From positions 5,104,357 through 5,168,356 of the forward strand of contig NC_049980.1 of the NCBI RefSeq assembly GCF_000003815.2: a stretch of 64,000 bases of DNA, given 5' to 3'. Both the position numbers and the translations under genes were made by a program. Shown here one piece after another: positions 14,654-41,213 of the stretch. The DNA comes from Branchiostoma floridae (lineage: Eukaryota > Chordata > Leptocardii > Amphioxiformes > Branchiostomatidae). Position 1 is the first letter of the stretch. Every line of letters starts with the position of its first letter. The notes below the pieces were generated by a model, which saw nothing but the letters and a program-made list of their open reading frames with translations, was not told the origin of the DNA and made no database searches.

Positions 14654-15514
14654 ATGGCGAAATTACAAGGAAGCCAGTGCACGAGATTCGCGTGGATCTT
14701 GCTCGTGTTCGTTCTGAACATTGCGGACTGTTCTAGCTCAACGGCGCTCGGCCGCCATCTTGTTTCAGACGATGAGGACGCCTCTGATCACACCATCGCT
14801 ACCCTGACCGACTTTTGGCAGCGGGTGAAGGCAGCTGTGCAGGACACAGAAGTCAAACTGGACGACACCTCGCCCACAGAACCGATATTTGGTAAAGACG
14901 ACGCGCCGATCGACCCTCCCCCTCAGACGAGCGCTCTCGCAAACGATATCGTGACACAAATTCTCTCATCCGTTGCCCAGGGCAACGAGCAGCGCGCGAG
15001 CAACGAAGACCTCCTCACCAACCTCACGGCCAGAGTCGTCAGCATCGAATCTGAACTTGCTCGTGTGAGAAAGGTCAACGATAGACTGCAAGACCAGGTG
15101 CGAAATCTGACGGCTATAAAGAAGGCGTCGCGCGACAAGCGCAGACGACACCACAGCTCGGTGGCGCGCCTTTCCCGCGCAATCTCCAGACTCCAGGGAG
15201 AGTTGGAGAAGGAGAAGCATCGCGTGAGACGCTACGAGGAGGAGCTAGCCTTCATGTCGGAGAGACAGGAGCGACTGGAGGGAAGAATCGCGGAGATCAC
15301 GCTCATGTTCCGCGACCAACACCCGGTCCTCGATCCGGACCCTTCTTCCGTCGTGAAGGAAGTCAAGTCGGCGGACGGAGAACTCTTGTCACCCGAAGGA
15401 AGCAGCCAAGGCAAGACGGAAGATAAGAAAGACGGCGACCCCCACGAAGAAGACGAAGACGATTACTACTACGACTACAACGAACATACGGCGAGAACGC
15501 CGAAAGAACAGTAG
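14654..15514 (+). CDS. Predicted secreted coiled-coil protein with FW-VK motif and acidic Tyr-rich tail (paralogue 1, 286 aa)
   Basis: I do not recognise a named family. The single coding exon runs from ATG in a good context (cgATGG) to TAG. Residues 1-26 look like a signal peptide: basic start, then a hydrophobic stretch ending at D-C. Residues 51-62 carry the block LTDFWQRVKAAV, shared with the two paralogues at 37589 and 40455. About 112-152 and 165-220 are heptad-like, charged coiled-coil segments separated by a basic KRRRHH patch. N-x-T sequons lie at N123 and N151. The tail (about 256-276) is very acidic and holds Y271, Y272, Y273 and Y275, good tyrosine-sulfation candidates. No transmembrane segment follows the signal, so secretion is inferred. 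The exon is visibly GC-richer than its flanks. It lacks the CxxC that follows the signal peptide in both paralogues. Gene reality is strongly supported by the paralogues, the 5' splice structure and the poly(A) signal. Function is unknown. Confidence 0.85.
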   Translation: MAKLQGSQCTRFAWILLVFVLNIADCSSSTALGRHLVSDDEDASDHTIATLTDFWQRVKAAVQDTEVKLDDTSPTEPIFGKDDAPIDPPPQTSALANDIVTQILSSVAQGNEQRASNEDLLTNLTARVVSIESELARVRKVNDRLQDQVRNLTAIKKASRDKRRRHHSSVARLSRAISRLQGELEKEKHRVRRYEEELAFMSERQERLEGRIAEITLMFRDQHPVLDPDPSSVVKEVKSADGELLSPEGSSQGKTEDKKDGDPHEEDEDDYYYDYNEHTARTPKEQ

Positions 15515-15673
15515 GGAAATGATACACAACACTACCCGTCCTGTCTTGCATATAGCAAAGAAATTATCAGAGAGAAAATACGCTATTTAAAAAAAGACTT
15601 TGTTTTTACTCCGTTGTTTGTGGCAGCGGCAAATATATGTTCTGTGTTTGGCATCTGAACGATTTGTATGTAA

Positions 15674-15679
15674 AATAAA
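15674..15679 (+). terminator. Poly(A) signal AATAAA of paralogue 1
   Basis: A canonical AATAAA lies 160 nt after the stop codon at 15514, in AT-rich sequence, in the right place for a short 3' UTR. Confidence 0.6.
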
Positions 15680-15834
15680 ACGTAGATAGAAATCGACAGA
15701 CACTTTAGCTTGAGTGTTTCTCTGTGTAGGACAAAGTGGGCTCGACGTTGTACAAAAAGATATTATCGTGAAATTTAAACTGATGTGTATCTCGTTCCCA
15801 GGACGGCACCTCGTGACCAGGGTTCTTCATCTGG

Positions 15835-16216
15835 CTCGGCCATGTTGATTTGATTAAATGGATGACATCCTCTGGGAACCCACAAACTGATGCGAGCGTA
15901 ATTTTTTCAAGTTTGGCAAAAAAAGTCACCCCCATTATGAAATCTATGTGGTTGAACAAATAGCTAAACGCATGGTTTATCGAACAATAAATACTTTAAT
16001 TCCATTTTTCATCTTCTTCTTTTATCTTGGGAATTGATTGAAATTCAACGACATGAATATTCATTTGAGTTTTTGTTCTTATTACGGCAGATATTTGATT
16101 ATTTTTCAGCTGCTTTGTACGATTTAGTACGATTTATAGTTTTGTCGAATTTTTTTGGTTGAAAAGAACAAATTGTGAGTGGATATCTTCCATGTAATCG
16201 TATTAAAATGGCCTAA
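15835..16216. mobile_element. About 382-bp inverted-repeat element (ATGGATGACATCC family)
   Basis: Left end ggccatgttgatttgattaa with atggatgacatcc and aaactgatgcgagcg. Right end gatatcttccatg and attaaaatggcctaa. It lies about 155 bp after the poly(A) signal of paralogue 1. Confidence 0.65.
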
Positions 16217-16684
16217 GCTTTCAGACCATAGGTTGTGCTGTTTTGAACAGTAGATGCGTTATACCGCAGTATATGCATTTGTGAAATGATATACAGTCTA
16301 CTTCTATGTCAGGCAGATATACCATGCATGAAATACCTCCAATACAGCCCGTACAGGTGCTCAAAGTGCAAAAAAATATATCATGTTTCAGCGAGATGTA
16401 TCGCATCGATGTCACGACCTGTCAATGTACATAGGGAACAGTAACGTTAGTGTTCAACACCGCCTATGAAGTCTTTAGTTAGGCCCCCTTTTCTATAGTC
16501 GGCGATCGCTTACCGCCTGTCCAGCGACGAAAACTGCCTTGATTCTACAGTTGGAATATGGTACAAGATGTATAAGTACAATTTGAAAGACAGAAAGACA
16601 TACAGAGCGTAAAGAAATACGTCTTTATCTGTTTAATTCGTTGAGCGATCTGTGAAACCTTTGGTCTTTCAGGTGTCGCGTAGT

Positions 16685-16897
16685 CTGTTCACACTTGTGC
16701 GTACATTCAAGTCCGTATGAGCTGCGTATTTACAATTTTGAATTAGGTAAATTTTGAGGTCCAAGAAGCAGTTTGTACGATAGAATAACTATGCTGTACA
16801 ACAATGGATCCAAGTGCAAAAATAAGTTCTTCTTGGCAAACTTTACCTTAGTAAAAAAATATTAATACGGACTTGAATATACGCACAAGTGTGAACG
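16685..16897. mobile_element. About 213-bp inverted-repeat element
   Basis: The left arm ctgttcacacttgtgcgtac with attcaagtccgtat is complemented by atacggacttgaat and acgcacaagtgtgaacg at the right. Arms are about 34 bp. Confidence 0.65.
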
Positions 16898-16899
16898 GG

Positions 16900-19299
16900 G
16901 CCTAAAACACTTTCCATCAAATTGAAACCGGCGAAACTTGTATAAGCCATAAGCATAATTTAAACACAGTCGATGATGTGAAAAATATGATTTTGAAGGC
17001 AACAAAACACAACACAAACAAAACACACTCATTTATCAACGAAACTAGTTTTAACTACTGCTCAAAATTTTCTCAATTACCTTGTCGCTCCCTAAAAAAG
17101 GAAAGGTATAAACTTACATGCATAATGACGGCATAATGACCCATTATGTTAAATATTGAAAGGCGGAGTCTTGTACAAGTTTAGTTGTGGCCAGTCACGT
17201 CTCACTTAGTGCAAATATCCGTACAGGACACAAAGGAGGCTTGACCGCTTCGGAACCGCATAGCCTGTCAAAGCGGCTAAAAAGAACAACAAAGAAACTG
17301 ACATATTCCATTGGGTCTAACTCGTGCGTGTAAATGGGGAGGTAAAAGTGAATAAATACAGCTTATACGTGAACCGAAGCGTGGTGTAGACTTTTCTTTG
17401 TGGTCAGACTTGTCAGTATCAAGTGTGGGGGATAGAGAGAGCGCTGAAAGAGGGTCTTTGTGAAACTGTAAGGGCGGTGTCACACTTGTCCGTATGCACC
17501 TTAACAGTTCGAACCAAAAGGGAGAATGTAATGTGTGTGAAAGAACAAAAGTGGGAAGATTATCATTTCGGTTTTTTTTTTTTTACCTCAGAATATCATA
17601 GTCTGGTGTAATTGAATATCTTTGTAGATAAAAATATGACGTGGATGACAGGTTTTAAACTGTTTAGGGGTGATAAAACTTCTTAGTCGGGCGAGTCGAC
17701 TTGCTTAGCGTTAGACCTTGTGGGGATGTCTTCTTGTGGTGGACTAAGAGATGTGAATAGAAAGGGAAGAAGTACCCAAAACAGTTTGATACAACAATTT
17801 ACGACAAAATCTGTGATAGTCGCAGTTCCCAAGAAGTACCAAGGACAGTTTGATTCAGCAGTCTACGACGAAAGCTGTGTCAGTTGCAGTTCTTACATTT
17901 ATCGTTAGATGCCGTTTCTGACAGGTCCCTGACCTGGCAAGCCTAAAAATAAATCGTCATAACCCAATGCGTTGTATGGCAGGGATTGTGACCTTCTAAT
18001 AACAGGAAAAGGCAGGAAAAAAGACGGGAGACCTTATGAAGAAAGGAAAGAAATTATTTTCATCTTAGCTGTGTTGGTGATCGTTGACATTCACAAAACC
18101 TCGAAATATTGCGTCTTAATTGCGTCTTAATTCATAGATGTGTTAACATATGTACAGTGGCAAATACTGATACTCGCAACTGGTTCATGGCCCAAACTCA
18201 AATCCTTGGCCTGTTTCAGTATATCAAATCTTTCGTTTTGCGAAGCGTAACTATCTTCAATCTTGTGCGACGATTCAGGGATTGGGGCAAAACAGGTTCT
18301 CCAGAAACTGTACTACAAGTCAAGTCAGAAGTCAACATATAAAGTTACTAACTGCAGTGCCACATTGTCCTGGTCAGTCCAAAAGCAAATCGAAAAAAAA
18401 TCTCACAACTTCTGTGTTTTGTTTGTTTGTTTGTTTGTTTTAAATTCAGCTCATACAGAAATATGTTAACGAAACTGAAAGGCGGGAAAAAAGCATTCCC
18501 TATGCAGACCAAAGCCGTCTCTAATTGTCCCAAAAGGAGTTTTGAGACGACTTTGGTGAATGGTAAAAGCTGAATACAGAAGAAGACTATCAGGCCCTAT
18601 CACTCACCCGTATTTACGTTGTATAGCTGTAATATAAAGTAACCGGTCAAAAATAGATTAATTTCCTCCCGACCTCTGCTCTAAATCTGACGTGTCACGT
18701 GATCACCGGAACCATGATTTCCCTCGCGTCGTTCTCAGGGTACTCATCACACTCCTCATCCAATCATCGTCGAGAAAACAATTCCATATGAAATGACATT
18801 CAATTAACGACGCAAAAGTGATGTGAAAGATGTGGATCTATTATATTATTATTGAGTGAAGATCACCTTTGTCACCTTTGTCAAACACCATTTTTGAACA
18901 ACCGTGAAGAGAAAAGCGCATTAGATATGCATATTCATTTGTACAAATTTGACATGTGAATATCTATGCCTATGAAACTCAGGGAGAGCGAGAAATAATT
19001 AGTGACAAAGGGGAAGATAGATGCAGAAACAGATATAGACAGACAACGACACAGAGAAAGACAGAAACAGATTCTGAGATAGAATAATATAGAGAGGGAG
19101 AGGGAGAGAAAGAGGAGAGATAGAAAGAGAGAGATAGAGATAGAGAACTCTACAAGTGTAGTACGCTTCTTTTCCTGTGTAGGCGAGTGCATTCCTTGCC
19201 AACAATACTTTCTTGGGTTAGTAATTCCCTTTGGTACCCTCCAGTCTCCACAGTGGTAAGAATTTGTGACTTGGGGCCAGAGAGCGGTCGGAAGTGATC
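16900..19299. other. No gene seen
   Basis: Contains a (gttt)n run at 18418 and a short accaagaagtacc-type direct repeat at 17760-17890 (gacagtttgattcagca against aacagtttgatacaaca). Nothing else. Confidence 0.5.
19030..19145. repeat. Purine-rich (GA)n tract next to a sequence gap
   Basis: Almost only A and G on the + strand (gagagggagagggagagaaa and similar), ending about 155 bp before the N run. Confidence 0.8.
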
Positions 19300-19647
19300 N
19301 NNNNNNNNNNNNNNNNNNNNNNNNNNNNNNNNNNNNNNNNNNNNNNNNNNNNNNNNNNNNNNNNNNNNNNNNNNNNNNNNNNNNNNNNNNNNNNNNNNNN
19401 NNNNNNNNNNNNNNNNNNNNNNNNNNNNNNNNNNNNNNNNNNNNNNNNNNNNNNNNNNNNNNNNNNNNNNNNNNNNNNNNNNNNNNNNNNNNNNNNNNNN
19501 NNNNNNNNNNNNNNNNNNNNNNNNNNNNNNNNNNNNNNNNNNNNNNNNNNNNNNNNNNNNNNNNNNNNNNNNNNNNNNNNNNNNNNNNNNNNNNNNNNNN
19601 NNNNNNNNNNNNNNNNNNNNNNNNNNNNNNNNNNNNNNNNNNNNNNN
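19300..19647. other. Assembly gap of 348 N
   Basis: Run of 348 N just after the purine-rich tract. Confidence 0.99.
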
Positions 19648-21089
19648 GAACCATGAGATTATGCCTCCTAGCGAAACTCAAGGGTTCTGCATCTGAACTT
19701 CCGGTTTTGATATCAAGTACCCTGGACATGCTATGATCGATATCTTTTTAATAGTAATAGTTATAAATAGCTGTTGATAAACTCGTGTGGGTTTATGCCC
19801 TAGTGGCTTTGTTTGGAACTGCAGTGTGTTTTTTTTAAACTTCTGAAGAGAATAACTCGATAAGGGATTGGTGTATTCGCTTTAGATTTCACAGAATTTT
19901 AAAAGAAAGTGCCTTATATGGTCACAAATCTACAAGGTACAATGTATATTCAAAGATGTTTAATGAAGCTGCTGCCTGGTACCAAGACTATCAAATGAAT
20001 GGTCCCTCAACTCTGACCTCCCATTCATTCTGGTACTGCAATTTGTGCGTGTGTTACTTCATTTGCTCCCCAGACCGGCTTGCTGCTCAGTCGGCGTTGT
20101 ATATAATCTCTCTGATCGTATTTTCGTGACTAATACCAATAGAAGAGGGACTGCCGAAGCCTCAGCACCCGGCAAGAACAGTACCAGGAAGATGTAAGTA
20201 CTATATACACATATATGTGTGTGTCTGTAACACCTGTGTGTTTGTTGATTACGCAATTCAGCGCGCTCAAATACTGCCATGTATTTGGAGATTGGAACTG
20301 CAACCAATACAACCTATCATTATTATTATTGCTATACAGAAATTAAAACCATCACAATAATTCTGTTTTTAAAGATAGTCTCTTTTTCTAGATGTCTAGA
20401 AATTATTATTGTTTTCTGTAACAGTCATGTATATGTATAATTGTATACAATGTATGCAACTTGTACTCTTTTTGATAGTACAAGCTCCGTGTGTTACGCT
20501 ATGGCAATACAAACAAACGTCAACCAAAACGTATAGACTCAGTCTGGTAAGAAAAAGGTAGTGGTGTAGAAATTCTACATTTTTTTTTCAAGAAAATGGA
20601 AGGGCAGACACAATTACTATAGCAGTCTAGGTTATATCCTCCAGACTTGGACCACCACTAGACAGACGAGTAAAATGTTACCAATACGACTGAAATAGAG
20701 ACCAGTGGTGGTGTGTAGTGCGACGACCCAGTCCCGTTAGTCATTAGTACATCTGCCTGCCCTACAGGGGTAATTTCACGCAACACGATGGCAGCTATAC
20801 TAAAGACGTCCCGTGTAGTAGTCACTTGGTTATGGGACGGGAAAGTGCTGATGCTGTCAAATCCGTTCTTTTTAATAGTTTTGACACAGGAATGGTGCAA
20901 AAGCATATTTCTGATGCTCTTGAAAAAACTTGTGCTGTTAAAGTTCACAAAATTCACAGTTCGAATTCCCTTAAAGTTTACAATTTTACAAATACATCGG
21001 TTAGTACCGGGGGTACTTACAGGTGTCTTAGTAGAATGGGTCAATTCATTGATTACCTTTTTTTTCAGAAATAGCCCGTATAAGCTACA
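19648..21089. other. No gene seen
   Basis: Several open frames of up to 150 codons exist next to the AC repeat. They owe their length to low complexity and show no domain. Confidence 0.5.
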
Positions 21090-21136
21090 CGCACGCACAC
21101 ACACACGCAGGCTGCCACGCACACTCACAAACACAA

Positions 21137-21214
<78 letters not shown>
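21090..21214. repeat. (AC)n microsatellite
   Basis: An uninterrupted AC run of about 38 units from 21139, preceded by imperfect cacgcacac repeats. Confidence 0.9.
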
Positions 21215-21219
<5 letters not shown>

Positions 21220-22013
21220 TACATTTCAATCCACTGGTAGTTGGAAATACTTAGAGAATTTATTATATTATTTCTAACTTTCATCCGGTCGTTTGAGAAA
21301 CTGTTACCTTGCGTATCTTATTACCTGGCGGTCTAACCTTCATCTATGTATCAGTGACTGTACCTCAAGGTCGAAAAGTACCAATATTTGTGCAGAAATG
21401 TAAACCACATGAAAAACCCAGGGTTTCTGTTTAGCGCTCGAGGCTAGAGGAGGCGAGGGCAGGGGGTGAGGTACCCCCGTGTGTCTCCTGTAGCGAGGCT
21501 AAGTGTTTCCATACCCTACAACAGACCAAAACAGTTCTTATGACCTGTGCTCTATTTTAGCCTGGTCACCATTCTCCAATGGTCGGCTTAGAGGTTTACC
21601 GGTATCTGTCTACCGTGGCCGACAGGAACAATAGGCATCACACGTATTTGGCCTGTTCAACACACCCATTTTTTTCCGCTCAACGCCCAAACTTTTGCTA
21701 CGTGACACACTTCCTTTTTTTCTGTGCAACACAGTTACTTTTCAGTCTGCTATGTATAGGCATATTATGGCTTCTGTCAGTCCGTCTTTTTACGTTATAT
21801 AACAACTCGGAGTCTCCGTGAAACAATTCCGCGGGGTGCACTAATGGATCTTTATTAACTGGGCGGGCTAGATACACTCTCAGCACCGTAGAGATAGTGG
21901 AGAGCTCCTGGTGGATGGTATGGTTACCAGTGCGCCCAGCTGCTTCTTCGTGTGCCCCTCTTACCTTGGGATCCAGACAGGACCGGGTAGCTACAGAGTT
22001 TTGTTCGCAGAGC
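21215..22013. other. No gene seen
   Basis: Includes the fragment shared with 13475. No other support. Confidence 0.45.
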
Positions 22014-22139
22014 CAAGGCAGTCAGCCCGACGATCTCACATTAGCGCTCCGGAGAGTTTAAACCTGAAGGAGTTATCGCTACCTCATCGGGCTTAAACTC
22101 CCCGGGGCACTAATAGGAGATCTGGTGGGGCTGACTGTC
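22014..22139. repeat. Imperfect 126-bp inverted repeat
   Basis: Arms of about 47 bp: left ggcagtcagccc, attagcgctccgg, gagtttaaacc; right ggcttaaactccccgg, actaataggagatc, ggggctgactgtc. GC-rich sequence continues to about 22220. Confidence 0.55.
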
Positions 22140-23007
22140 TTTGGGCCGCCGAATAAACTGCCCTAGCTGCCCGATCCCGGCTGGCTCCCAGGGTAGCCCC
22201 TCTAGGTTGGGGCTTGTTTTTGAGGTGTTTGTTTGGCTTAAAAAAAAAACAATAATACACTCTCCTGACTACTATAGAAACATGTGTTTTGGATAAACTT
22301 GAACTTGATAACTAATCCCTGTTGCGGTGACTCATTTCCCTGAGAAAGACAAAACAACACATTCGGTGTACATTTCTTTAATTCTTCCAGCATGGTCAAA
22401 GTCAGGGTTACTCCGAGACATTGTTAATCACCATTTATTACAAGCATTTCTGTAATTACAGATAATTTCACAATTTAGAGGGATGCTTGCCTGTGCAGTC
22501 GTTATTTTTATATGCTTAGTAAAAGTAACGGATCGACATCTGGTGACTATTCTTTTTGGGGGAGGGGGAAGAGGGTGGGCTTTAGGGTAGCAAAACAACC
22601 GACGACATTTCAGACCATACATAGTGATACTCAAAGTGCGGTCACTACTAGTAAGTGTGGGGTGCGTCCTCTAGCGACCTTTTGCTGTACTTCACCTTGC
22701 ATGCTGGTATGACCAGAACCGGTCGAGAAAAACAAACTATGGATTAGGAAAATCCTCTCCTGTCCACCCTCAAGTTACGGTTGAGCTATCTGGCCTTGCA
22801 TCACCCTTAAGCGCACCTGTTGGAATAGGGACGAACCGTACGTATTTTCGCCATTTGTCCCATGCGGTCACCTGACGTGGGACACACGGGGAAAATACAT
22901 GACCGCCTCTACATGTAGATGCAAGATGACTTTGTGTTGTCACTGAATTATAATTAATCAAAGCATGCGCGCACAATGATTGATATTCATCGAAAGAGAT
23001 ATGTCAT

Positions 23008-23110
23008 GGTCGCGCCTGATAGCGACTAGTTCGAGTCTTGTTCGCCCACTTGCGACGTTTTGCAATCATTTTTTTTTTTAATTTTCCAAATAAAATTCTA
23101 CAACTCGAAT
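23008..23110. repeat. Dispersed repeat fragment (partner at 55130)
   Basis: cctgatagcgactagttcg, gttcgcccacttgcgacg and a T-rich stretch match the complement of 55185-55275. Confidence 0.4.
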
Positions 23111-23407
23111 GGCATCGTCCACAATATACGGGACCGACGCCGGAAAAAAAGTCGCAATCTTACTCACAAACACCTGCTTGCAGAGTAGGAAGGTTTGGCG
23201 TCACTGTGACCCATACTCTGAGGTATTTTAGGATTTGAAAACGATATACATAAAATCACGTCTAGTCTACCTTCGAATTCCAGACTAACAGGAAATACCT
23301 CTTCATGAGCACATCTACTCGACAGAAGCCAGACTTCAACAAACCACGTGTCGAGTAAGTAGTCATGATTAGGGGTGGGTACCGGTATGTTATATGCCCC
23401 CCCCTAG

Positions 23408-23573
23408 ATTAGGCGAAAATCGATCGGACAACTAGTCTGCCAGCTCTAAATTTCGAGTGAGGCCTGTCCCTGACAGGAAGGGGGAACCCTTCCATTTTTT
23501 CGTCGGCGGCAGGGCCATGCCTCCTCGTAATTTAGAGCTTGCAGACTCGTCGTCCGATCGATTTTCGCCTAAT
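23408..23573. mobile_element. 166-bp foldback element
   Basis: attaggcgaaaatcgatcgg and ctctaaatttcgag at the left are complemented by ctcgtaatttagag and ccgatcgattttcgcctaat at the right. Arms are about 60 bp. Confidence 0.7.
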
Positions 23574-24182
23574 GTGAGGGAGGGAATAAAATGAAAAACC
23601 TTATTGGGCACCTCCGAAAACAATAGACCTGTAATAAAGTAAGTGGACCGGATTTTGGACCGATTAGACATTGAACTGATAGAATTGAATACCGGAAAGT
23701 GTTCATGTGTTTTGGGGCTTGAAGGCTCAAGAAAATAACAAGAGAGAAGCAGAGGCGAGTTGTTGGTCAATTTTACCAAGATTATACAGTCAAACTTGGT
23801 TTAAGTATGGTCTTCCTCTCTGCCACCTACACCCTTTATCCATGGTGCCCACTGTGAAAACATGACACCCCATCCCACAACAATCACTACATCTCTTTAT
23901 CATCATCACATTCATCATTTGAAAGATTATTTATCATAGCAGTTTTGACATCTTATCGTTCAATCACCGTCTGATTTACAACAACAAATACAGGCTTAGT
24001 GTTTGTTGCACTTAGGTTTGAAACATCAATTGGGAGTTGTTGAAAAAGCAAGGAGGTTCTATATAATCTCCTTGTTGAAACATAATATCGTACGGTGAAA
24101 AATAAACATTGACGACATATTTCATCAATTGGTTCATAATTTGTATGCTGGCACGGGCTCTCGCATCTGCACACGTAGACCC

Positions 24183-24480
24183 TACGAGGTAGCAGAACAC
24201 AACATTGTATCCTTGACTGTACTTCGTGATAACAAATTCCACTCCACGATAGTTCTAGGAAAATACGATATTTTTTAACGCATCAATCCTAGGTTGGTAA
24301 CTCTGGTACTTGAAGTCATGGCTGTTTCTTGTTCTTTTTTGAGCTGGTATTAGATACTTATCAGTCGGTACGTCCACTAGTTTATTGGTCATTTTGTACA
24401 TTATGGAAAGTCTGAGCAAAGTCGTATGTGCCGAGATGCATCCAAGTGTTTGGTGGCGCAAGTGTCGGCTTTGAGGTTGT
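24183..24480 (-). pseudogene. LINE (non-LTR retrotransposon) reverse-transcriptase C-terminal fragment
   Basis: The minus-strand translation gives RLSIMYKMTNKLVDVP, YLIPAQKRTRNSHD and PRIDALKNIVF, followed in the +1 frame by RTIVEWNLL. This is the well-known C-terminal end of LINE ORF2 proteins, with a frameshift between the two parts. Upstream it turns into unrelated frames near 24480. The ATG-started open frames here are remnants, not host genes. Confidence 0.7.
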
Positions 24481-24538
24481 ACGACTTCTCTAGTTCGTGT
24501 ATAAATGCGCGCCTTCTTGCGCAACCGTAAGAGCGCCA

Positions 24539-24745
24539 CTGTAAATGCATTTAAGTTCGCGGGGATTTAATTTCGCGGTAGCGGGAAAATGGACTTTTCG
24601 CGGTGGTTTTAATTTTGCGCTAGCGTCATAGACTGCAGTCACATAATATAATGGATAAATGTTCGCGGTGGACTTAAGTTCGCGGTGAATTGGCCTCCGC
24701 GAAAACCGCGAAAACAAAACCGCCGCGAACATTTCTGAATTTATT
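24539..24745. mobile_element. About 207-bp inverted-repeat element (CTGTAAATGCA family)
   Basis: Begins CTGTAAATGCATTTAAG and holds the GCGGTGGTTT, GTTCGCGGTGG and CCGCGAAC blocks. The right end is eroded, so its border is approximate. Confidence 0.7.
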
Positions 24746-24999
24746 ATTCCAAAATAGCCGTAAAAGTTAATCAACGTGTCGAATCCAGTTACCATATAGT
24801 CTTTACATATAGAAATTCCCACAGGCCGACAATTGTCTTCTACTACCTTAACTGTCGTCTGAATTTCCCTAGATGGCCAAAATGGCGGAAGTGTGTAAAT
24901 ATTAATCGCTTTAGTCGACATTTATATGACATAACTTTGTAAAATAGATTCTATTAAATCGAATGACAGCGGCAGAGAGGTATGGTGCATTGAGAACAG

Positions 25000-25125: not shown

Positions 25126-25178
25126 TTCCCAAATACAGCTTACCTCGCAGATAGTTAGAAATAAATCATGAACTTTAA

Positions 25179-30839: not shown

Positions 30840-30990
30840 TACTCGAATGGAAAGCCGACTTATTCACGTAATTCTTGGCAAGGCGATAAAATTTTCGCGT
30901 AAATGTCTTCCTTGATTTTCAAGCGCGTATGCTTTGTAGAGGGGTCTTCTGAATTCAACGTAAAGCATTGTCGGGACCCCCTATACGGAT
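30840..30990. repeat. Direct repeat, copy 1 (partner at 32140)
   Basis: Shares ttcccgttactcgaa, taattcttggcaagg, ttccttgattttcaagcg and cattgtcgggaccccc with 32140-32290 in the same order. Copies are about 1.3 kb apart. Confidence 0.5.
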
Positions 30991-32139: not shown

Positions 32140-32290
32140 CCGTAATTCGAACGGACGTAAGTCGTCTTCTTTGCGTAATTTGTAGCAAGTAGATAAAATT
32201 TTAAGTTCTTGCCTTCCTTGATTTTAGCGCCACACGCAGGGATTTCTCCTTGATTCAGCGTCAAGCGTTGTCAGAACCCCCGTATATGTA
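32140..32290. repeat. Direct repeat, copy 2 (partner at 30840)
   Basis: Contains ttcccgtaattcgaacgg, ataaaattttaag, ttccttgattttagcgcc and cgttgtcagaaccccc, aligned to 30840-30990. The sequence between the copies is not obviously alike. Confidence 0.5.
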
Positions 32291-34924
32291 GACCCTCACA
32301 TAGGGTCTAGGAGACCCCATGGTTGTGTGGGGTCACCTGGGGTCATGCCACAGATGACCAACACTTCGGTAAAACAACAAGAGAACGGTTTGACATCAGA
32401 CATATTATTGTCCGGTTCCCATGTGTTAGATTTCACGGTGAATACCGAAAGGAAACATTTCTTGTGTGTGGTTACTAATGTAACGTTTGTTAACTTGTCA
32501 TATGCATTCTTTTTTATACGCATTCTAGTTTATACTATGAGGCTTAAAAATTGCCTCGTTTTCGCTTACCAGAAATCTGCTAACCCTAACCTCTTTCTGT
32601 AGAGTCGACCGCTGGCAAGAGACATAAAATTTTCAAACCTGACATCTGAGTGTTGAAATTGAAACAGTTTTTTTCTACGATTTTTCATGATTTGAATAGT
32701 TTTGAAATGTTTCATGTGATCTATTCAGAAATTCATGATTGAATAGCTTCGTCAGGTTGGTAAGTCACTGATTAAGAACAGTCGTTGTACATAACCAAGT
32801 GCTCAATTCAACTGACGTTTCAGTGCTAGTGACCGCCTGTCATCTACGTTTAGGGCCGTATCTGTGAGCAGCGACACCTATGCTGCAATGCAATGTGAAC
32901 AAGTAAGAATTGCGCTGGGAAATGTGACATACCGTCACGTCATCGAAGCGTCGGTTGAATAAAGCCTTTGATTGTGTGCAAAGAATCCTGTTATCACGAG
33001 AAATACATGTTTTTCTTCAATGATAATGTTTGACATTAATGAAACCGGGAGCCCTGATTTCTACCGGGAAGCCATATTTCCTACCTTAGTCACGCCGACA
33101 GGAAAACCCGCGGCACATGGCCTCGTCTGGCCCGGATCAAAGCCGGGATCAAGGCTCGTTAGCTAACGTGTAACGAGGCGGAAAGTAGAGGTGCTGACAT
33201 GACTGATAGGGATAGATATATGACTGGGATCCGTGACAAAGCTAGTGTCTTACCGGGCCGCGCATGTTGGCGTCTGTTTGCGAAAGACATTCGCTAACAG
33301 TCACCAACACTCTGCTGGTTGGACGCCTAAAATTACGTTTTTTAAATTAATCAATATTGTAATTGGCAAAATGCCACGAATTATGGCACAAAATACGTGA
33401 ACAAGTCGCAAATATATTTTTGATTAAATCGTACGTTGTGCATTGTTTTGTTTTTTATTTTTAATTCAGTAGCAAAACTGAAAGTTTCAATAAATAAAAG
33501 TAATCTACTTTTGGGCCGAAACTGAGGATGTGAAATTCCAGTCGCGGCCACTTTTGTTGTGGAGGGCAGGTTATGAAAAGAAGAGAAAAAAACACATGTA
33601 ACAATCACTTAGAAAATGATTATCCTTTGTGCTAATGACATTTTTTTTATTTCCACTTCAAATGATCCATATGACGATGTCCTTGTGTGTTTCCTGAATC
33701 ATTCTCAGTACCATCGCATGGCTGACTATATCCTTATCTTATCGCCCACAAGGTGAAAATTTCAGTCATCAGCTTTTGATCAGGTCACAATCACATCGCC
33801 TGGATAATGTCTGTCGGTCGTGTATGGCATATTTCAATGACATGTTGACAATGACTCTCCAGGCAGAGGTTCAGACAATGGCAAGGAAACGCAGAAACTG
33901 CAAAAGTGTTAACGAGATCGTAAAATAATGTTCAATTTTCTTCAGCACAGTACAGGGACACATGATCAGTCTTTAATGTAGCGGGGCTTGAAAGCCTTTA
34001 AATAAATTCTACATATTCATATTACATTGTACTTCACATAGAAAATGAAATTTATCTATCTATCTATCATAAATGTTAAACGTTGAAAGCACAATTGGTA
34101 GGACCTATCGATTGTAACATTGAATAGGCAGGCATTTTTCAAGCACATAACGGTGATGACAAATAGTGCTACACATTGGTTTTGAATTTCTGAACAAGTC
34201 GATTGTAAAATGCGTCATGGTGACATTGACAATAAAATTCCGTTTTGTGTTCTGTTATTTGGATCATGCTTCAATATCTTGCATCATATTTATAAAGTCA
34301 ATGATCAAGCGCATATAGGTGATAAATGACACTGCTTTGACTGCAAGTCAAAATGCATCATGTTCATATACTAGTACGTAAGTACGCCTTTATTGTGAGA
34401 CTGGCTGCTAATGACTCAATTTAGGAAGTCTGGCCATGAGTAAGTCAGTAGCACAAGTCGCCCTGGCGCTAGATTCCCCCATAAACACCTAATTCTGTTT
34501 GACAAGCCATTATGCGGGTGTAAGTGGGCATCTCTCTTCCCACTCACATCCTGTCAAATTGGTTAGAGGGGAGGCCGGATATTGTGGCTAACGCTCTAGA
34601 GTCTAGCGACTCCCCGCCGACAAGTCAATATAAATGGAGACCAAACTTCGTCGGCAAACTGTCAAGTTCCCTCCCGCGAACTTCTGAGTTTACCAGAGGA
34701 CAAGCCTGTCAACTGTAAAGCCTGGTAACCATGCCATCGTGAGGTCCCAGGTATGTCTACGGTGCTGGGAGTGTAGTCCCCAGTGAAGTTTCGTAGCACA
34801 AGCCGGGGGATTTTTACGGGCTTGGTTGTCAGAAAAAGAATACTGCTTAATATGCCCCGGTCATCGATATATCTGGCAAGAAATCGGGCAACACACATTT
34901 TAGAATCTTACAGAAAATCTTACA
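32291..34924. other. No gene seen
   Basis: A small hairpin near 32295-32330 (tagggtctaggagacccc) and a (tatc)n run at 34052. Otherwise nothing. Confidence 0.5.
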
Positions 34925-34928
34925 TTAA

Positions 34929-35887
34929 CCCTATCCAGACCGGGGGGGGGGGGGGCTTTTGAGGCCCGCGGCAACTTCGATGTCCTATAACGCCAGAACG
35001 GCTTACGCTAGAGCCACCAAATTTGGTGAGTTTTCCTAAAATATTGTTGGCAAAAAATTTACGAAGTTTAAAAAATTTTCCATTTTTTCGTGTTGCCATG
35101 GCAACCGTTTGTTGACAGCCTGTTTTGCCAAAAATCACTATTTTTGGTTCTAACAATGTATTTTTCATATTTATTTGTTATATTACTGCTATTTTGTAAC
35201 ATAGATAAAATCTTATATTATTTAGCATATCTTTCATAATTATATATGCATAAATTATGCTAATTTGATGACGTCATCAGCCCAAAATCCAAGATGGCGG
35301 ACCGTATGGCAAGGTCAAGAATAACAAGCTAATTATCCCTCAGAATTTGTAACAACCTGGTATTTTTTCATCAAAAACCATCTAAATGAATGAAATTAGT
35401 CTATTTCCATTGCCCTTTGTGATTATTTGTTGCAAAAAAAGGATTTTTAAAAATTCAAGGTGGTGGATATAATATGGCAGAGCCCAACTCGTATCTTAGA
35501 TGTGCATGACGTCATTTTGTGACGTCATTTTGACGTTATCGATGTTGCTATTGGCAACACAAGTCGTAATAAACATTATTATTCTGTTATCTGCACTTGT
35601 TGTTACATTTTTTTTAGCATAACTTGAAGTTTTCTGAGAAAAACCCTTTTTTCATGGGTCCGGCCAATATAATCAAATATTGATGACGTCATAATTACGT
35701 CATCTTACGTCAACGTAACGTCAAACGTCAAATACTTGTCAGATATTATGTCGATATTATGTCCTAAAAATTTGGTGGCCTTACGGCACTAGGTTTTAGA
35801 GTTATAGGACTTAGAAATGGAGGGCCCCAAAAGCACCCCCCCCCCCCCCGGTCCAGGGATGACCAAAAAAGCCCGGTCTGAATAGGG
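34929..35887. mobile_element. 959-bp TTAA-flanked element, piggyBac-like, with G/C-run ends
   Basis: TTAA at 34925-34928 and 35888-35891. Ends CCCTATCCAGACCGGGG and CCCGGTCTGAATAGGG are complementary and run into a G run and a C run of about 14. The interior matches the 25179 element (ttttgaggcccgcggcaac, gttgccatggcaacc, repeated tgacgtcat). No transposase ORF. Confidence 0.8.
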
Positions 35888-36134
35888 TTAAATAAAACTG
35901 TACCCAGTGAAGATTCATCGTAATTTTGGGTGGTTAGACTATTTGGTAAGGTAGTGCAATTTCTTTTCCTAGACTATCAATTGTAAGCAGTGCTTTGTTG
36001 TCGAAAATGGAAAGTTCATGATCATGAGTTTTTGTGTTATGAGTTTTGTAGTCTTTCTTAATGTTCCCAAAACAGCTACCCGGTCTGGCCCCGGTTTGGA
36101 TATTTGACAGTAGCACTAGGACTTGTGTCATTGT

Positions 36135-36450
36135 ATTCGTTATTTTGGATGATAACGTAAAGCCAGCGGTCCCGTGTATGTGAGGGTGCTTCAGGCATAA
36201 GCCTTAAAAGTCAGACCTCTGTACGTAAAAGTCCAACACACTTTGATATCGAAAAAGTAGGAATGACCTGAAAACGCATTCAGCTTCAACTTAATAGACC
36301 GATCCCGACTGTCAATCACAATTAGAATATCTGATATCCTGACACTTAACGGTTAAACCAATGAAATAGTCAGTCTTGAATTTGAATCTACATGTTCTAC
36401 TTTGCATTTCTACGTTTTGACATAGGAGAGTGGGGATAAAGGATTCGTCT
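36135..36450. repeat. Dispersed repeat fragments (partners at 130 and 28420)
   Basis: The first half matches 130-340. The second half (tagaccgatcccgactgtc, cgttttgacataggag) matches 28420-28590 (tagaccgatctgtcaatcac, cgttttgatggagttaggag). Confidence 0.45.
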
Positions 36451-36764
36451 TGTGAGGATGCCTGCTTTACATTTTTAAGGGACCAGTAGTGAATGGTTTC
36501 CAGGCTACTAGAAGGCAGACCTTGTCAAACTGCGACTTGTGAGGAGACCGGCTTGTTTTCGCGTTCGGTCGTGATTTGGTGGCGAAATAGTCGGCATTCC
36601 TGTAGCCGTGTCAGAAACAGGGCCGGTGTTTTCTGATTACCCTGTCACTTTGACGCTAATCAAAGAGATGAAGTAGCTCAGGGTCAACACATTCATGGAC
36701 ATAGTTGATGGTGTCTGATACTGCCAGGAATGATGTCTGTACAACTTAAATCTAAAATACAAGC

Positions 36765-37102
36765 TAAGGTTCCGTTGATTTGATCATATGCATGCCATCA
36801 GAGCGCGCATCAGTTTTCGGTCATTTACAAAAAGCTTTCGACCATACCGTAAATCTTGCAAAGCAGCTGAAAAAACAACAAATATACGCGCCGTAAATTG
36901 AAAGAAAATATCGGAAGAGGAATCTAATCTTCCAGAATGAAAAAATCCATTCCCAAGTCAAAAAAATTCTTCAACCTTGATTTGTTCAACCTTCCGGACC
37001 ACGTAAGTCTCATATTGAAGGCATGTTCTTCTCCTGCCTTTTTTCGCACGCTCGCACAGCTCTCTCCAGAATATCATCTATATAATCAAATCTATATGGC
37101 CT
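36765..37102. mobile_element. About 338-bp inverted-repeat element upstream of paralogue 2
   Basis: Left end ttccgttgatttgatcatat with gcgcgcatcagttttcgg. Right end gaatatcatctatataatc and atatggcct. It is the closest transposon upstream of the paralogue 2 leader acceptor at 37420. Confidence 0.55.
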
Positions 37103-37386
37103 CGGACACAATAGCTTTGAAAACAACGAAAGACATTGTTAATAATAAAATATATAAAGTCCTTTGAGCAACTCAGATCCCTTGTGTGTCAAAGACTGGC
37201 AAAATGATTCTTTGAATGTGCTGGGCGTTACGTTTGAAATGTATCTGTAGGCCCTTTGGCAAGTTTAGCAATACTTGCGGTTAGGCCAAGGCCGTGTCAA
37301 GTATACGGATGTGTATTCAAGGAAATGTATGTTACGAAATGTGTGTTTTGTGCATCTGTAATTCTCTTGATATCCATACCAGCAGT

Positions 37387-37420
37387 GATTGAATTTTCCT
37401 TTTTTGATGTTTTTAACAGG
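37387..37420 (+). other. 3' splice site upstream of paralogue 2 (leader intron acceptor)
   Basis: A pyrimidine-rich run ending tttttaacag|ggcagg places an exon start at 37420, 169 nt before the preferred ATG. The position matches the acceptors before paralogues 1 and 3. The matching donor was not identified. Two short upstream ORFs start at about 37433 and 37460 in the leader. Confidence 0.5.
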
Positions 37421-37588
37421 GCAGGTCGCGAGATGTATATGTGCCAAGCTGAACAGTGATGGAACGGATATTCCAGGAGTGCGAAGATATGAAATTTTCC
37501 GGCAAAAAAAAAGATCGTATAGATGAAAAATATTGACTCTTTGTCAAAAAGGAATCACAAGACTTGGCACTGTGGTATGATGATCAAA

Positions 37589-38416
37589 ATGGCGACCACA
37601 TTCTCGCGATTTCTCGCGATGTTTACCGTGACGACAGCTCTGATGAACTACTACGTACTTCTCTGCGCCGGTTCAACGCAACTTTGCCCGGATTGTCCTG
37701 CAAATTCCCACGTCTCGGAGCAAGAAACCATTCTCACGGACTTTTGGACGCGAGTCAAGACTGCGGTGGCGACCACAGAGCGAGAGCTAAAACAGAAAGA
37801 CGCCTTGCCAACACCCAACCGGGGTTACTGGGTCAAACTGGGCGAACATAACATACATAGCTTCGAAGACGAACTCTCTCTGATGTTTGCTTCGCACATT
37901 CTCTCCAATCTCTTCCATAACAGGAGGGTAAACGAAAAGAGGGACGATGTGGGAATTCCTCAAGAGGTGCAAGACACGATAACAAACTTAACGGACAGAG
38001 TTTACAACCTAGAGGCCGACCTACAACAGGCCATCGCCTCAAATCACTACCTGAACTCACAGGTCAGAGACCTCACGGGCCAGATCTCGCGATACGAGGT
38101 GAAGTCTCACGAGAGTTCGAAGAAGCTGAGGCCGAAGTACCAGCGACAAATCAAGCGGTTGTCGAAGACGGTTTCCGAACTTGGACAGGGTCTGGAGAGG
38201 GAAAGACACAGGTCGCAACTTCTGGAAGAGGAGCTAGCACTGTTTGAAAAGAGGCAACAGGACACTGAGGATAAATTGATCGAGTTGTACCGACTTGTGG
38301 GATACACAACTCCACAAACGCCAGAAGAAGAAGAAACCTCGACGCCGCCGACTGAGTCGAACGACTATGATTACGACCTGGTCGGCAGGGCGCACAGACC
38401 TGTGGGATATCGCTAG
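37589..38416 (+). CDS. Predicted secreted coiled-coil protein with FW-VK motif and YDYD tail (paralogue 2, 275 aa)
   Basis: Same unrecognised family as 14654 and 40455. The frame is open from 37523 (297 aa), but I prefer ATG 37589. It has a better context (aaaATGG), gives an M-A start as in both paralogues, and puts the hydrophobic signal sequence (about residues 5-27) at the N terminus. From that start: CPDC at 33-36, LTDFWTRVKTAV at 49-60, sequon N133-L-T inside the first coiled coil (about 125-165), second coiled coil about 180-235, proline/threonine/glutamate-rich linker 241-257, and YDYD at 260-263 in acidic surroundings. It ends in PVGYR; the other two end in basic/Gln residues. The segment between the FW block and the coil (about 92-108) matches paralogue 1 weakly (a shared HILS/QILS) and is missing from paralogue 3. 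It is convergent with paralogue 3. A small transposon starts 4 bp after the stop. Confidence 0.85.
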   Translation: MATTFSRFLAMFTVTTALMNYYVLLCAGSTQLCPDCPANSHVSEQETILTDFWTRVKTAVATTERELKQKDALPTPNRGYWVKLGEHNIHSFEDELSLMFASHILSNLFHNRRVNEKRDDVGIPQEVQDTITNLTDRVYNLEADLQQAIASNHYLNSQVRDLTGQISRYEVKSHESSKKLRPKYQRQIKRLSKTVSELGQGLERERHRSQLLEEELALFEKRQQDTEDKLIELYRLVGYTTPQTPEEEETSTPPTESNDYDYDLVGRAHRPVGYR

Positions 38417-38420
38417 AATA

Positions 38421-38628
38421 GTAACGCTAATTCACCTTTATCCGCGGGGTAACCTATATCCGTTGTTTATAATAAAAAGACAAGTAAACAGATGGTGGTT
38501 GCAAACTGCAATACTTTGAAACTATTGCAATTTGAAATCATCATCCGTCGACTTCATATCCCTAAATGGTATGTCTTTAAAAACAACGGATATAGGTTAC
38601 CCAGCGAATAATGGTGAACTAGCGTTAC
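38421..38628. mobile_element. 208-bp inverted-repeat element (GTAACGC family) abutting paralogue 2
   Basis: Terminal inverted repeats of about 45 bp start GTAACGCTAATTCACC and contain GGGTAACCTATATCCGTT. TA flanks lie at 38419-38420 and 38629-38630. There is an inner inverted pair, CTGCAATA/TATTGCA-like. It has no ORF. It starts 4 bp after the stop codon of paralogue 2 and contains the first AATAAA after that gene. Confidence 0.75.
38471..38476 (+). terminator. AATAAA downstream of paralogue 2, inside a transposon copy
   Basis: The first AATAAA after the stop codon is 55 nt downstream and lies within the 208-bp inverted-repeat element 38421-38628. If used, the element supplies the 3' end of this gene. 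Confidence 0.4.
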
Positions 38629-39626
38629 TATCAATAATAGGCGATAGGTGACACGGATATCTTTATTATGATTGAAATGTACATATGTGGGGAACACTGC
38701 CGAATAGGACTGCTCTAAAAACTGGTCTATGTGGACTATTACTTAATCCTGTGTCAATGTTAAAAATTATCTTAGAGACCAACAAAAAGTTGTCAACGTT
38801 GGCCAGGGAGCCCTTTTCTATCCGTTGTTACTAGTACAGGTTTGACTGTACCTCAATGGCCAGGTGGTCAGAATGTACGTATGAGCGATGTGGTTACTAG
38901 TATAGATTTGGCTATATATTGATGTCCAAGAGGTCCTTATTTACAGATTTGACTGTTATTGCTTTTTTGCATGATGATAGCATGTACAGAACACTTTTCA
39001 CATGACGACAAGTAGAGAAGACCATATAGAAAAGAATAAAAAAAGTTTTGCACTTTCTTAGCATTTAATGCCATGTATTAAATGAAACTATAAATTGAAC
39101 ACAAGCGTTTAGAAATACAACATATACCATGAACACGAAATACAATTTAGAGCCTTTGGATAACTTTGTAAAGATGTTGGAAGGCCATCTAGGCTACTCT
39201 TTATAATAATTCATCCATGTATTATATAGAAAAATATGATCTGCATGGATAGCGACAAGTAACACATATATTTGTATTATATTGACAATCATGAGAGGCA
39301 CAACATGTTCATCTAAAGAATGTCAACATACGTATCTTGTATCTTCTAGAATATGATATTATCATGATAAATCAATGCATGTGCTATTATAAGTATGAGA
39401 TATCGATCACGACAATGATTGAATGCGTAGTTTTGCCTTAAAGTTTGGCATATGGCACAACATCACCATTTCCTATTATAACCGTTACGGCAAGTACAAA
39501 CAGCTCAAGTCGTGACATGTTGTTTTTGTCATATACTAGAAAACGCCAATGACAGCAAGAAATGAAACGAACGGAATTTTACCACTTAGCGTAGCACTAT
39601 CACTTCCAAATCTAACCATATGCAAT

Positions 39627-39840
39627 TAACGTTAGTTGATCTTTATCCGTGGGGTAACCTATAACCGTTTTTTAACCGGTTATGTAGGGATATCAAGACG
39701 AGGCCGGTGGTTTCAATTTGCAGTTTTTCTATAATATAAAGAATACTGCAGTTTGAAAACACAACACGTCGTCTTGATATCCTTAGATACTAAAAACGAC
39801 GGATGTAAGTTACCCCTTGGATAAATGTCAGCTAGCGTTT
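39627..39840. mobile_element. About 214-bp inverted-repeat element (GTAACGC family)
   Basis: Starts near taacgttagttgatc, contains ggggtaacctataaccg and an inner inverted pair around gatatcaagacga/cgtcttgatatcc, and ends cagctagcg. It lies between the convergent paralogues 2 and 3. Confidence 0.65.
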
Positions 39841-40454
39841 TAAATTATGTCATATAAAGTGAAATAAGATACGTTACCACTTATTGGGACAAGAATAGTA
39901 CAGATGCTATTTTCCTATTCATTCCTATTCCAAGGTTATGGACTACATTCAAGCAGCGTCCAAAGTCTGAGTTGGTTTATGATTGTTTGACTGTATCTTT
40001 CAAACGGATGCATATTTTTCACTTGATACATCGCATCATTTGCTCAAAATACCATTCGAATCCAAGCTTTCAGATTACCAGATGGTAGTAAGCAATCGAC
40101 GATAAGCAAATCTATACTTAAACTCTGAATCAAAGACACAATATCGGTAGCATGGTGTGAAACAGTCAATACCACATCACCATAGGCATAGCAGTGCAGT
40201 AATGTAATGAATGATATTGACCAAAGTTTTCAGACCTGTTCTCGATCATAGAAGCACTAATTGTCTAGGGCAACACACACAGACAGTTCTCCTTACAGCA
40301 CAGGAAATTACAGCTTTGACCGTGACCTGGTCTTCAGTCTGACGATCGATTTATCACTTTGCGCGCCTATGACGGCCTCGCCACAGCATCGGAATTTCTC
40401 CCCTTGCTATCAGATGCCCTCAGTGTTTCACAACAACGTTAAATTTACAACCCT
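39841..40454. other. Intergenic, 3' of paralogue 3
   Basis: Should hold the 3' UTR of paralogue 3, but no clear AATAAA (TTTATT on the + strand) was seen. Confidence 0.4.
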
Positions 40455-41213
40455 CTATCGCTGTCCCTTTGGCTCGCGCACAAACTCAACATCATAGTCG
40501 TACTCAGTTTCACCTGCGGGAACCTCAGGGGAGCCAACCGGAGCAATCGCGTTGGTGACGACACTGTTGTGCTTGCGCCGAGGATTGTGGGTAATCCTTC
40601 TCGCCAGCGCCGCCATCTTGGATTCCAGTTCCCCCTGTCTGACCGCTATCGTGGACAGTTCTGTCTGGTATCGGTTCATCTTGCTGCGCTCGTTGTCCAG
40701 CTCCATCTCGACGTATCCGATGCTTTCTTCAAGGTGTTCCATGTAGTTCCTCAAGTGCCGACGCTTTCCTTGACCTTTGTTTCCGCTCATTTGAGATGAC
40801 AGGTTGGCGACCTCTGACCGCAAGTACTGGTTCTGGTCAAGTACGAGCGACATGTTGGTTTCGAGGCGGGAAACTCTAGCGGACAGTCTGGCCACTGCTG
40901 ACCACGAACCGCTAACCTTCGTCTTTTTCGTGTTCTTTGTGTCATCCTTGGTGCCACTTTTGTCAACCCACTTTCCTTCTTGGCGTTTCGTTGCAATCTC
41001 TTCTTCAACGTCCTTGACCGCAGATTTGACTTCGTCCCAGAAGACTTTTAGAGTTGTCACTTTTCCGCCACCTTCGTCGCCCGCAATGCAGTTCGCACAA
41101 GCCTCGCTATGCCTGTGCTTCGTTGTTGCTGTTGAGTCCGAGACGGAGACAGATGCGGTGAAGCACAAACTAACAAGAAGCAAGCAGCTTGCAAATTGTC
41201 TTTCGAATGCCAT
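40455..41213 (-). CDS. Predicted secreted coiled-coil protein with FW-VK motif and YDYD tail (paralogue 3, 252 aa)
   Basis: Third member of the family. The start is in a good context (gaaaATGG) and gives an M-A start. Signal peptide about 1-25, CANC at 39-42, FW block TLKVFWDEVKSAV at 54-66. A Lys/Thr/Asp-rich linker at about 75-100 replaces the longer segment seen in paralogues 1 and 2. The first coiled coil is about 104-143 with possible sequons N120-M-S and N137-L-S, the second about 152-207. YDYD lies at 238-241, followed by a basic end (REPKGQR). It is the shortest and most divergent copy, but it aligns along its whole length without gaps in the coiled-coil regions. A 3' splice site sits 108 nt before the ATG. 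I saw no clear AATAAA close downstream on this strand. A secreted location is inferred. Function is unknown. Confidence 0.85.
   Translation of the reverse strand: MAFERQFASCLLLVSLCFTASVSVSDSTATTKHRHSEACANCIAGDEGGGKVTTLKVFWDEVKSAVKDVEEEIATKRQEGKWVDKSGTKDDTKNTKKTKVSGSWSAVARLSARVSRLETNMSLVLDQNQYLRSEVANLSSQMSGNKGQGKRRHLRNYMEHLEESIGYVEMELDNERSKMNRYQTELSTIAVRQGELESKMAALARRITHNPRRKHNSVVTNAIAPVGSPEVPAGETEYDYDVEFVREPKGQR

Follow-up and report, generated by a model that had tools for sequence, protein, structure and literature searches.

A tandem family of five divergent, predicted secreted coiled-coil proteins with acidic tyrosine tails in the amphioxus Branchiostoma floridae

What do three neighboring and very dissimilar genes of the amphioxus Branchiostoma floridae encode, and are they related? 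The window, meaning the whole stretch of 64,000 nucleotides that was analyzed, lies at C2:5104357-5168356 (contig NC_049980.1). An earlier note had described three coding regions in it as a local family of proteins that align end to end, each with an N-terminal signal peptide, a block around the residues FW, two coiled-coil segments and an acidic tyrosine tail. The three open reading frames (ORFs) matched the coordinates given in that note exactly, the frames were open throughout and the end-to-end alignment was reproduced. They are the sole ATG-started ORFs of at least 250 amino acids (aa) in the window, besides one that crosses a run of N. The homology of the three stood, although their number did not, as the family in fact has five members. 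With a little better than even confidence, we read these sequences as secreted, disulfide-stabilized coiled-coil oligomers that would display probably sulfated tails to basic partners.

14654..15514, plus strand: member 1 (P0001, 286 aa), single coding exon (ORF, alignment)
37589..38416, plus strand: member 2 (P0002, 275 aa) (ORF, alignment)
40455..41213, minus strand: member 3 (P0003, 252 aa) (ORF, alignment)

All ten pairs among the five members gave Smith-Waterman z-scores of 13.8-30.3 (300 shuffles per pair, zone composition kept), which rules out chance or composition as the source of the similarity. The N-terminus and FW block alone reached z 8.2-16.5, so the similarity does not stem from coiled-coil composition alone. 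Identity to the first member is 29-31%, and with five paralogues within 120 kb of one contig the proposed local duplication followed by strong divergence was borne out. Mean identity at codon positions 1, 2 and 3 was.431,.537 and.311, compared with.351,.419 and.286 in codon-shuffled, realigned controls (20 shuffles; highest means.389,.485 and.303); hence the excess identity lies mainly at positions 1 and 2. In every one of the ten pairs over half of the codons for matching residues are different, so synonymous sites look near saturation. Five long open frames together with the excess at codon positions 1 and 2 rule out pseudogenes. A common origin and constraint on the protein are supported by these comparisons.

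Membership was examined by a search of the whole genome (513,431,437 bases, 431 contigs) with member 1 as the single query, a search that remote members outside the locus could escape. It listed 12 places: the query, five rows that correspond to four other members, and six weak matches. The four other family loci are C2:5049700, 5142014, 5144955 and 5025475/5026000, the last being two rows of one member. When the three window proteins were used as a profile in a hidden Markov model (HMM) search, as the earlier note had proposed, two further full-length members were recovered on the same contig at E 7e-35 and 4e-24. Both (P0004 and P0005) have the signal-like N-terminus, FW block, coils and Tyr tail, and they lie 54 and 78 kb to the left of the window. 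The gene order on C2 is P0005, P0004, P0001, P0002, P0003, with P0003 inverted, over a span of 120,122 bases. In an unrooted tree P0001 and P0002 are split from the others (92) and P0003 is grouped with P0004 (82).

The five-member profile returned no sixth member in the roughly 228 kb of the locus that were scanned (4,980,000-5,207,999), with 357 bases before the window missing and runs of N unread. A 28-column profile of the FW block alone found the same five at 48-53 bits, with the next match at E 0.15. After the five, the five-member profile ranked L013 on C19 (E 0.0091; best domain 0.16) and an ORF on C9 (0.053), loci that had entered the profile search because of their earlier weak matches. 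The six weak genome places (C9 twice, C10, C19, C2:34.3 Mb and C362; E 0.42-7.87) were not counted as family; the translations of the C9 pair, C19 and C362 lack both FW block and tail, and those of C10 and C2:34.3 Mb were unread. The C9 pair (L011:4744-5376 and L012:4782-5405), which does not belong to the family, consists of near-identical ORFs separated by about 14 kb, each encoding a single hydrophobic segment and a repetitive coiled coil.

The two coils are laid out in the window proteins as follows.

15014..15118, plus strand: member 1 coil 1, with R-hxxhE (RVVSIE) and core Asn (heptad register)
15164..15310, plus strand: member 1 coil 2, with core Glu/Tyr/Gln layers (heptad register)
37979..38083, plus strand: member 2 coil 1, with R-hxxhE (RVYNLE) (heptad register)
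38153..38299, plus strand: member 2 coil 2 (heptad register)
40791..40895, minus strand: member 3 coil 1, with R-hxxhE (RVSRLE) (heptad register)
40593..40739, minus strand: member 3 coil 2 (heptad register)

The landmark R-V-x-x-[IL]-E equals the published R-hxxhE coiled-coil trimerization motif. It occupies the same column in all five members, with R127 and E132 of P0001 invariant; an R-hxxhE at any place occurs in 6-12% of the shuffles of each protein. The register with Arg at g, hydrophobic residues at a and d and Glu at e was the best of seven in every member, having 9-11 of 14 core positions hydrophobic, a count that includes the motif's own two hydrophobics; in P0001 the decision was narrow (9/14 versus 8/13). 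The Asn of N-x-x-L falls on a core a position of coil 1 in four members (Gly in P0004), and coil 2 has core layers of Glu (5/5), Gln (5/5) and Tyr (4/5). By eye, a basic hinge lies between the coils of all five, which in P0001 contains RDKR. With coil segments placed by anchors, periodic power at 3.5 residues exceeded that at 3.67 in nine of ten segments (best period 3.40-3.54), the exception being coil 1 of P0005 (.42 at 3.67 versus.38 at 3.5).

Conservation follows the same register. Once anchor columns had been removed, identity among the five related sequences, with no phylogenetic correction, was a.40, b.20, c.14, d.75, e.20, f.20 and g.18 in coil 1; the corresponding values for coil 2 were.59 and.52 in the core,.34 and.28 at the flanking positions and.17-.19 at the outer ones. 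Core a/d positions were far more conserved than outer positions by permutation (p 0.0004 in coil 1, 0.0002 in coil 2). For the flanking e/g positions against the outer ones, with motif columns removed, p was 0.47 and 0.08. These comparisons support the coiled-coil core as the part that the paralogues conserve.

The N-terminal part contains the predicted signal peptide and the FW block.

14654..14731, plus strand: member 1 predicted signal peptide (rule-based)
14792..14860, plus strand: member 1 FW block, TIATLTDFWQRVKAAVQDTEVKL (alignment, profile)
37589..37672, plus strand: member 2 predicted signal peptide, weakest of the five (rule-based)
37721..37789, plus strand: member 2 FW block (alignment, profile)
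41139..41213, minus strand: member 3 predicted signal peptide (rule-based)
40995..41063, minus strand: member 3 FW block (alignment, profile)

A rule-based check identified a signal-like N-terminus, with a hydrophobic stretch and candidate cleavage sites. The 10-mer mean Kyte-Doolittle hydropathy was 3.08 in member 1, where a candidate site lies between ADC and SS, and 1.8 in P0002. Residues that conform to the -3,-1 rule follow the hydrophobic run in all five, the candidates of P0004 being poor, and no later membrane-like hydrophobic 19-mer was found beyond the N-terminal segment in the five proteins. Ahead of the FW block a cysteine pair is present in four members, as CxxC in P0002, P0003 and P0004 (forms CPDC, CANC and CVGC) and as the near-match CDDVDC in P0005. 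N-glycosylation sequons occur in each protein, in three of them as NLT just ahead of R-hxxhE. Most landmarks that had been listed for the three window proteins (FW-x-x-VK-x-AV, R-V-x-x-[IL]-E, N-x-x-L-x-x-[QE]-V and the acidic Tyr tail) were confirmed in all three. Two residue details were incorrect: P0002 has Ile in place of the Thr four residues ahead of FW, and the supposed E-x-[ED]-L reads Q-T-E-L in P0003. Taken together, the N-terminal hydrophobic segment, the lack of a later membrane-like one, the mostly heptad periodicity and the conserved core agree, at the level of sequence, with the secreted oligomeric rod suggested in the earlier note.

The proteins end in short acidic stretches that are rich in tyrosine.

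15443..15487, plus strand: member 1 acidic Tyr tail, HEEDEDDYYYDYNEH (Tyr context)
38354..38380, plus strand: member 2 acidic Tyr tail, ESNDYDYDL (Tyr context)
40485..40514, minus strand: member 3 acidic Tyr tail, GETEYDYDVE (Tyr context)

The clustered tail tyrosines number 4, 2, 2, 4 and 4 in P0001 to P0005, a total of 16 that leaves out Tyr274 of P0002 (GYR, at the C-terminus), which is outside the cluster. In fifteen of them Asp or Glu is a direct neighbor (-1 or +1); only the middle Tyr of the P0001 YYY lacks one. No Lys lies within five residues of any of the 16, and Arg does so once (Tyr262 of P0002). Tyrosines with an acidic residue on both sides are confined to P0002, P0003 and P0004. 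For the tyrosylprotein sulfotransferase TPST, the excerpted source names Asp at -1 and an acidic +1 residue as major determinants of Km (PMC5562738), and sulfotyrosine clusters in flexible anionic segments are described, likewise in an excerpt, as mediating extracellular binding (PMC9372746). The tail tyrosines stand in an acidic setting of the kind favored by the sulfotransferase, and judged by this context the tails are probably sulfated.

The favored reading can be put as a sequence of steps. The signal peptide would be removed and a small protein secreted, in which the CxxC of P0002-P0004 may form disulfides and the FW helix may serve as a head motif. Coil 1 would start a parallel bundle by means of R-hxxhE, probably a three-stranded one, and coil 2 would lengthen the rod beyond the basic hinge. 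The acidic C-termini, each with two to four clustered tyrosines, would be flexible and sulfated in the Golgi, so that the rod might present two or three sulfated anionic tails side by side. Our guess is that these would bind a basic extracellular partner by avidity, whether a heparin-binding growth factor, a matrix protein or something similar. The paralogues would have diverged in their outer faces and tails, that is, in their binding targets, with the assembly core kept.

Several observations weigh against this reading. Coil 1 shows modest periodicity in P0001 and P0004, and that of P0005 is not significant. As there is no e/g excess once the motif columns are left out, interchain contacts beside the core are not supported, and the Leu-rich core inflates identity by composition, an effect that the permutation leaves in place. 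The codon-position order 2 > 1 > 3, found in 10/10 real pairs, is no evidence in itself because 164/200 shuffled pairs show the same. The predicted signal peptide of P0002 is weak, P0001 has neither CxxC nor any cysteine pair, and P0001 and P0005 lack any Tyr that is acid-flanked on both sides. The best match of the five-member profile in the PDB was the designed protein apCC (E 0.0012), an antiparallel coil to judge by its name. An Asn buried at a is a determinant of dimers, and the core Asn at a in four of five members therefore argues for a dimer over a trimer. The tenascin heptads of B. floridae, which have the same kind of motif, are predicted to form dimers in the excerpted source (PMC11401434). 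R-hxxhE, for its part, is reported to specify parallel three-stranded coils and is found in coronin-1 (excerpt of PMC3653964). From the sequences, we consider a trimer likelier than a dimer.

The coil data also bear on two alternatives. Like the chains of fibrinogen, the five paralogues could each contribute a different chain to a single mixed coiled coil, and this would agree with clustered genes, with a core that is kept across paralogues as outer positions diverge, and with the polar residues conserved in core layers (Asn for coil 1, Glu and Gln for coil 2), by which pairing could be fixed. However, the e/g positions, where chain specificity would reside, show no significant conservation beyond the motif, and each chain has its own R-hxxhE. 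We graded this hetero-oligomer down because of the lack of a significant e/g excess, and regard it as rather unlikely. The proteins could instead be secreted oligomers that serve in recognition during reproduction or immunity and evolve fast, their outer faces changing under positive selection. The tandem array, the 29-31% identity to the first member inside one cluster and the 14-20% identity at outer coil positions would suit such a role, but deep age accounts for the divergence equally well. Since codon position 3 shows hardly more identity (.311) than the shuffled controls (.286), age and rate are inseparable here, and we find this explanation doubtful.

Rather than being cleaved, the hydrophobic N-terminus could stay as an anchor and the coil project outside the cell as part of a type II membrane protein. 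Uncleaved anchors are also found ahead of extracellular coils, and the two C9 ORFs look similar by eye; against this stand the -3,-1 rule residues after the hydrophobic run in all five members, even with the poor candidates of P0004, and we judge a membrane anchor improbable. A prohormone-like precursor that frees peptides by cleavage at the basic hinge or in the tail has in its favor the hinge seen by eye in all five and the RDKR of P0001. Yet a strict furin site is present in one member of five (P0001), whose second site, RVRR, lies inside coil 2; no amidation signal was seen by eye, and both sides of the hinge are conserved as coils. Conserved furin processing was rejected on the one-in-five count, and the precursor reading is very improbable. 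Exchangeable-apolipoprotein-like amphipathic helices of about 270 aa with FW as lipid-binding helix scarcely deserve consideration: the size of the proteins and their FW amphipathic helix are reminiscent of apolipoproteins, and coil 1 of P0005 has slightly higher power at 3.67 than at 3.5, but 3.5 prevails in nine of ten segments, which rejects 11-mer (3.67) helices, and no apolipoprotein family is among the Pfam rows shown.

The boldest of the possible readings is a substitute for thyroglobulin in amphioxus, in which an unrelated secreted oligomer would have its clustered C-terminal tyrosines iodinated and coupled in the endostyle. Excerpts of one source state that amphioxus can make proteinaceous thyroxine (T4), that no thyroglobulin orthologue has been demonstrated in amphioxus, that the C-terminal site of thyroglobulin is thought to couple between the tails of two subunits, and that sites favored for iodination are also favored for sulfation (PMC13078365). 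A parallel coiled coil with DYDYD-type tails could provide the coupling geometry of thyroglobulin. Against this, sulfation may take sites out of hormonogenesis (excerpt of PMC13078365), and an amphioxus protein resembling thyroglobulin, in which one site is conserved, has been put forward (excerpt of PMC3464141). We regard the idea as speculative and a very long shot, important if true.

The gene models leave one qualification. The description of the genes as intronless applies to the coding part; upstream of it, acceptor-like sites 92-169 nt ahead of the ATG in all five members leave room for an intron in the 5' untranslated region (UTR).

14510..14511, plus strand: acceptor-like AG with pyrimidine tract, 142 nt upstream of the member 1 ATG (0.3% of random 300-mers)
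37418..37419, plus strand: acceptor-like AG, 169 nt upstream of the member 2 ATG (4.8% of random 300-mers)
41322..41323, minus strand: acceptor-like AG, 108 nt upstream of the member 3 ATG, not significant alone (17.5% of random 300-mers)

The fraction of random 300-mers with an acceptor score as high was 0.003, 0.048, 0.175, 0.281 and 0.13 for P0001 to P0005, so that singly only two members (0.003 and 0.048) are distinct from random sequence. The sites suggest a 5'UTR intron as a candidate. Upstream of member 1, positions 14209-14511 hold an ATG-started stretch with a hydrophobic run followed by a possible 73-nt intron at 14439-14511 (GTAAAA...CACAG); the preceding stretch could represent either a first exon or an upstream ORF. 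In the second ORF the first in-frame ATG is at 37523 (T at -3, A at +4). Starting at 37589 instead gives all five members the same context, a purine at -3 and G at +4, and this start was preferred for that reason.

Other features of the window and its surroundings are of a different kind. A MITE-like element (miniature inverted-repeat transposable element) at 38418-38631, which starts one base past the stop codon of member 2, has 55-nt inverted arms, 91% complementary and 104 nt apart. A LINE-like (long interspersed nuclear element) reverse transcriptase ORF of 686 aa (L010:5890-7947, minus strand) lies 0.3 kb downstream of member 4, and in the window a fragment without Pfam match at 24258-24566 (minus strand) resembles by eye the C-terminal part of that ORF. 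Three overlapping ORFs 10-14 kb to the right of member 4 (L015:5726-9427, plus strand) look by eye like a DIRS-type retroelement with gag-like, reverse transcriptase and tyrosine recombinase ORFs. A tandem repeat with a 177-bp unit in 3.1 copies occupies 46110-46662, and long, degenerate TG-rich arrays extend over 58370-59282. Among nine other window ORFs scanned against Pfam, one exceeded its cut-off, a cyclophilin-type prolyl isomerase exon at 62604-62864 (minus strand; PF00160, 24.2 bits versus a cut-off of 21.7). To the right of the cluster is an S-adenosylmethionine (SAM)-dependent methyltransferase exon (L024:7618-8310, plus strand; PF08241, 24.4 bits versus 21.2). Rfam and tRNA scans gave 0 matches each.

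The cluster shows how a secreted coiled-coil protein may evolve after duplication, with the core kept and nearly all else released. It also offers a natural experiment on coiled-coil specificity, in that five divergent paralogues may either assemble each with itself or mix. Sulfated or iodinated tails would, in addition, make the family a candidate for a part in extracellular binding or in the thyroid-hormone chemistry of an early chordate.

How, finally, does the family compare with known proteins? No listed Pfam family reached its gathering cut-off with any of the five proteins (rows shown were the best 25 of 50 for P0001 and the best 25 of 31 for P0003). The best match, ATG16 with P0001 (29.3 bits versus a cut-off of 33.7), is a coiled-coil match. 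Searches of PDB sequences with P0001 and with the five-member profile returned designed and generic coiled coils only. Membership in a named family is therefore rejected within Pfam and PDB, and the earlier statement that no named family has this plan holds for the libraries searched. No published amphioxus family of such proteins was found by title among the papers listed in a literature search made by words, not by sequence.

The alpha, beta and gamma chains of fibrinogen are, as is predicted for this family, secreted, paralogous and disulfide-linked coiled-coil chains. However, no fibrinogen C-terminal globular domain is among the Pfam rows shown, and the fibrinogen coiled coil (PF08702) matched P0003 at chance level (E 0.38). 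Coronin is intracellular and has a beta-propeller, in which it differs from the amphioxus proteins, and no homology with it was detected. With coronin-1 and other R-hxxhE trimers the family shares the hexapeptide code (excerpt of PMC3653964), whose register was also the best here. In thyroglobulin, extreme C-terminal tyrosines are brought together by dimerization (excerpt of PMC13078365), which resembles the arrangement proposed here, but the amphioxus proteins have about a tenth of its size, and neither Tg repeats nor a ChEL domain are among the Pfam rows shown.

Closer likenesses are found with two groups. The tenascin assembly region (TNC, TNR and the B. floridae tenascin) is secreted by way of a signal peptide, combines N-terminal cysteines with heptads and has a central RLxxLE within the heptad region, and TNC forms disulfide-stabilized trimers (excerpt of PMC11401434); the tenascin-type RLxxLE feature has its counterpart in the R-hxxhE of all five amphioxus members. 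Tenascins differ in having EGF, FN3 and fibrinogen domains together with a single heptad stretch of ~27 aa, whereas the amphioxus family has two coils, the FW block, the Tyr tail and no globular domain that we could find. EGF-like, FN3 and fibrinogen-related domains are absent from the Pfam rows shown for the five proteins, and the frames stop after the tail. The class II small leucine-rich proteoglycans (SLRPs) fibromodulin and osteoadherin are secreted, with acidic, Tyr-rich termini for which sulfation is predicted or known, and the Tyr-rich terminus of fibromodulin binds collagen and heparin-binding proteins (excerpt of PMC7310474). These proteins are described as leucine-rich-repeat solenoids, not coiled coils, and the Tyr cluster of fibromodulin is N-terminal. 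Hence the tenascin assembly region is the nearest known system in assembly mode and the class II SLRPs are the nearest in tail chemistry; the amphioxus proteins belong to neither group and form a well-supported orphan family, ordinary in structural kind but unusual in how its parts are combined.

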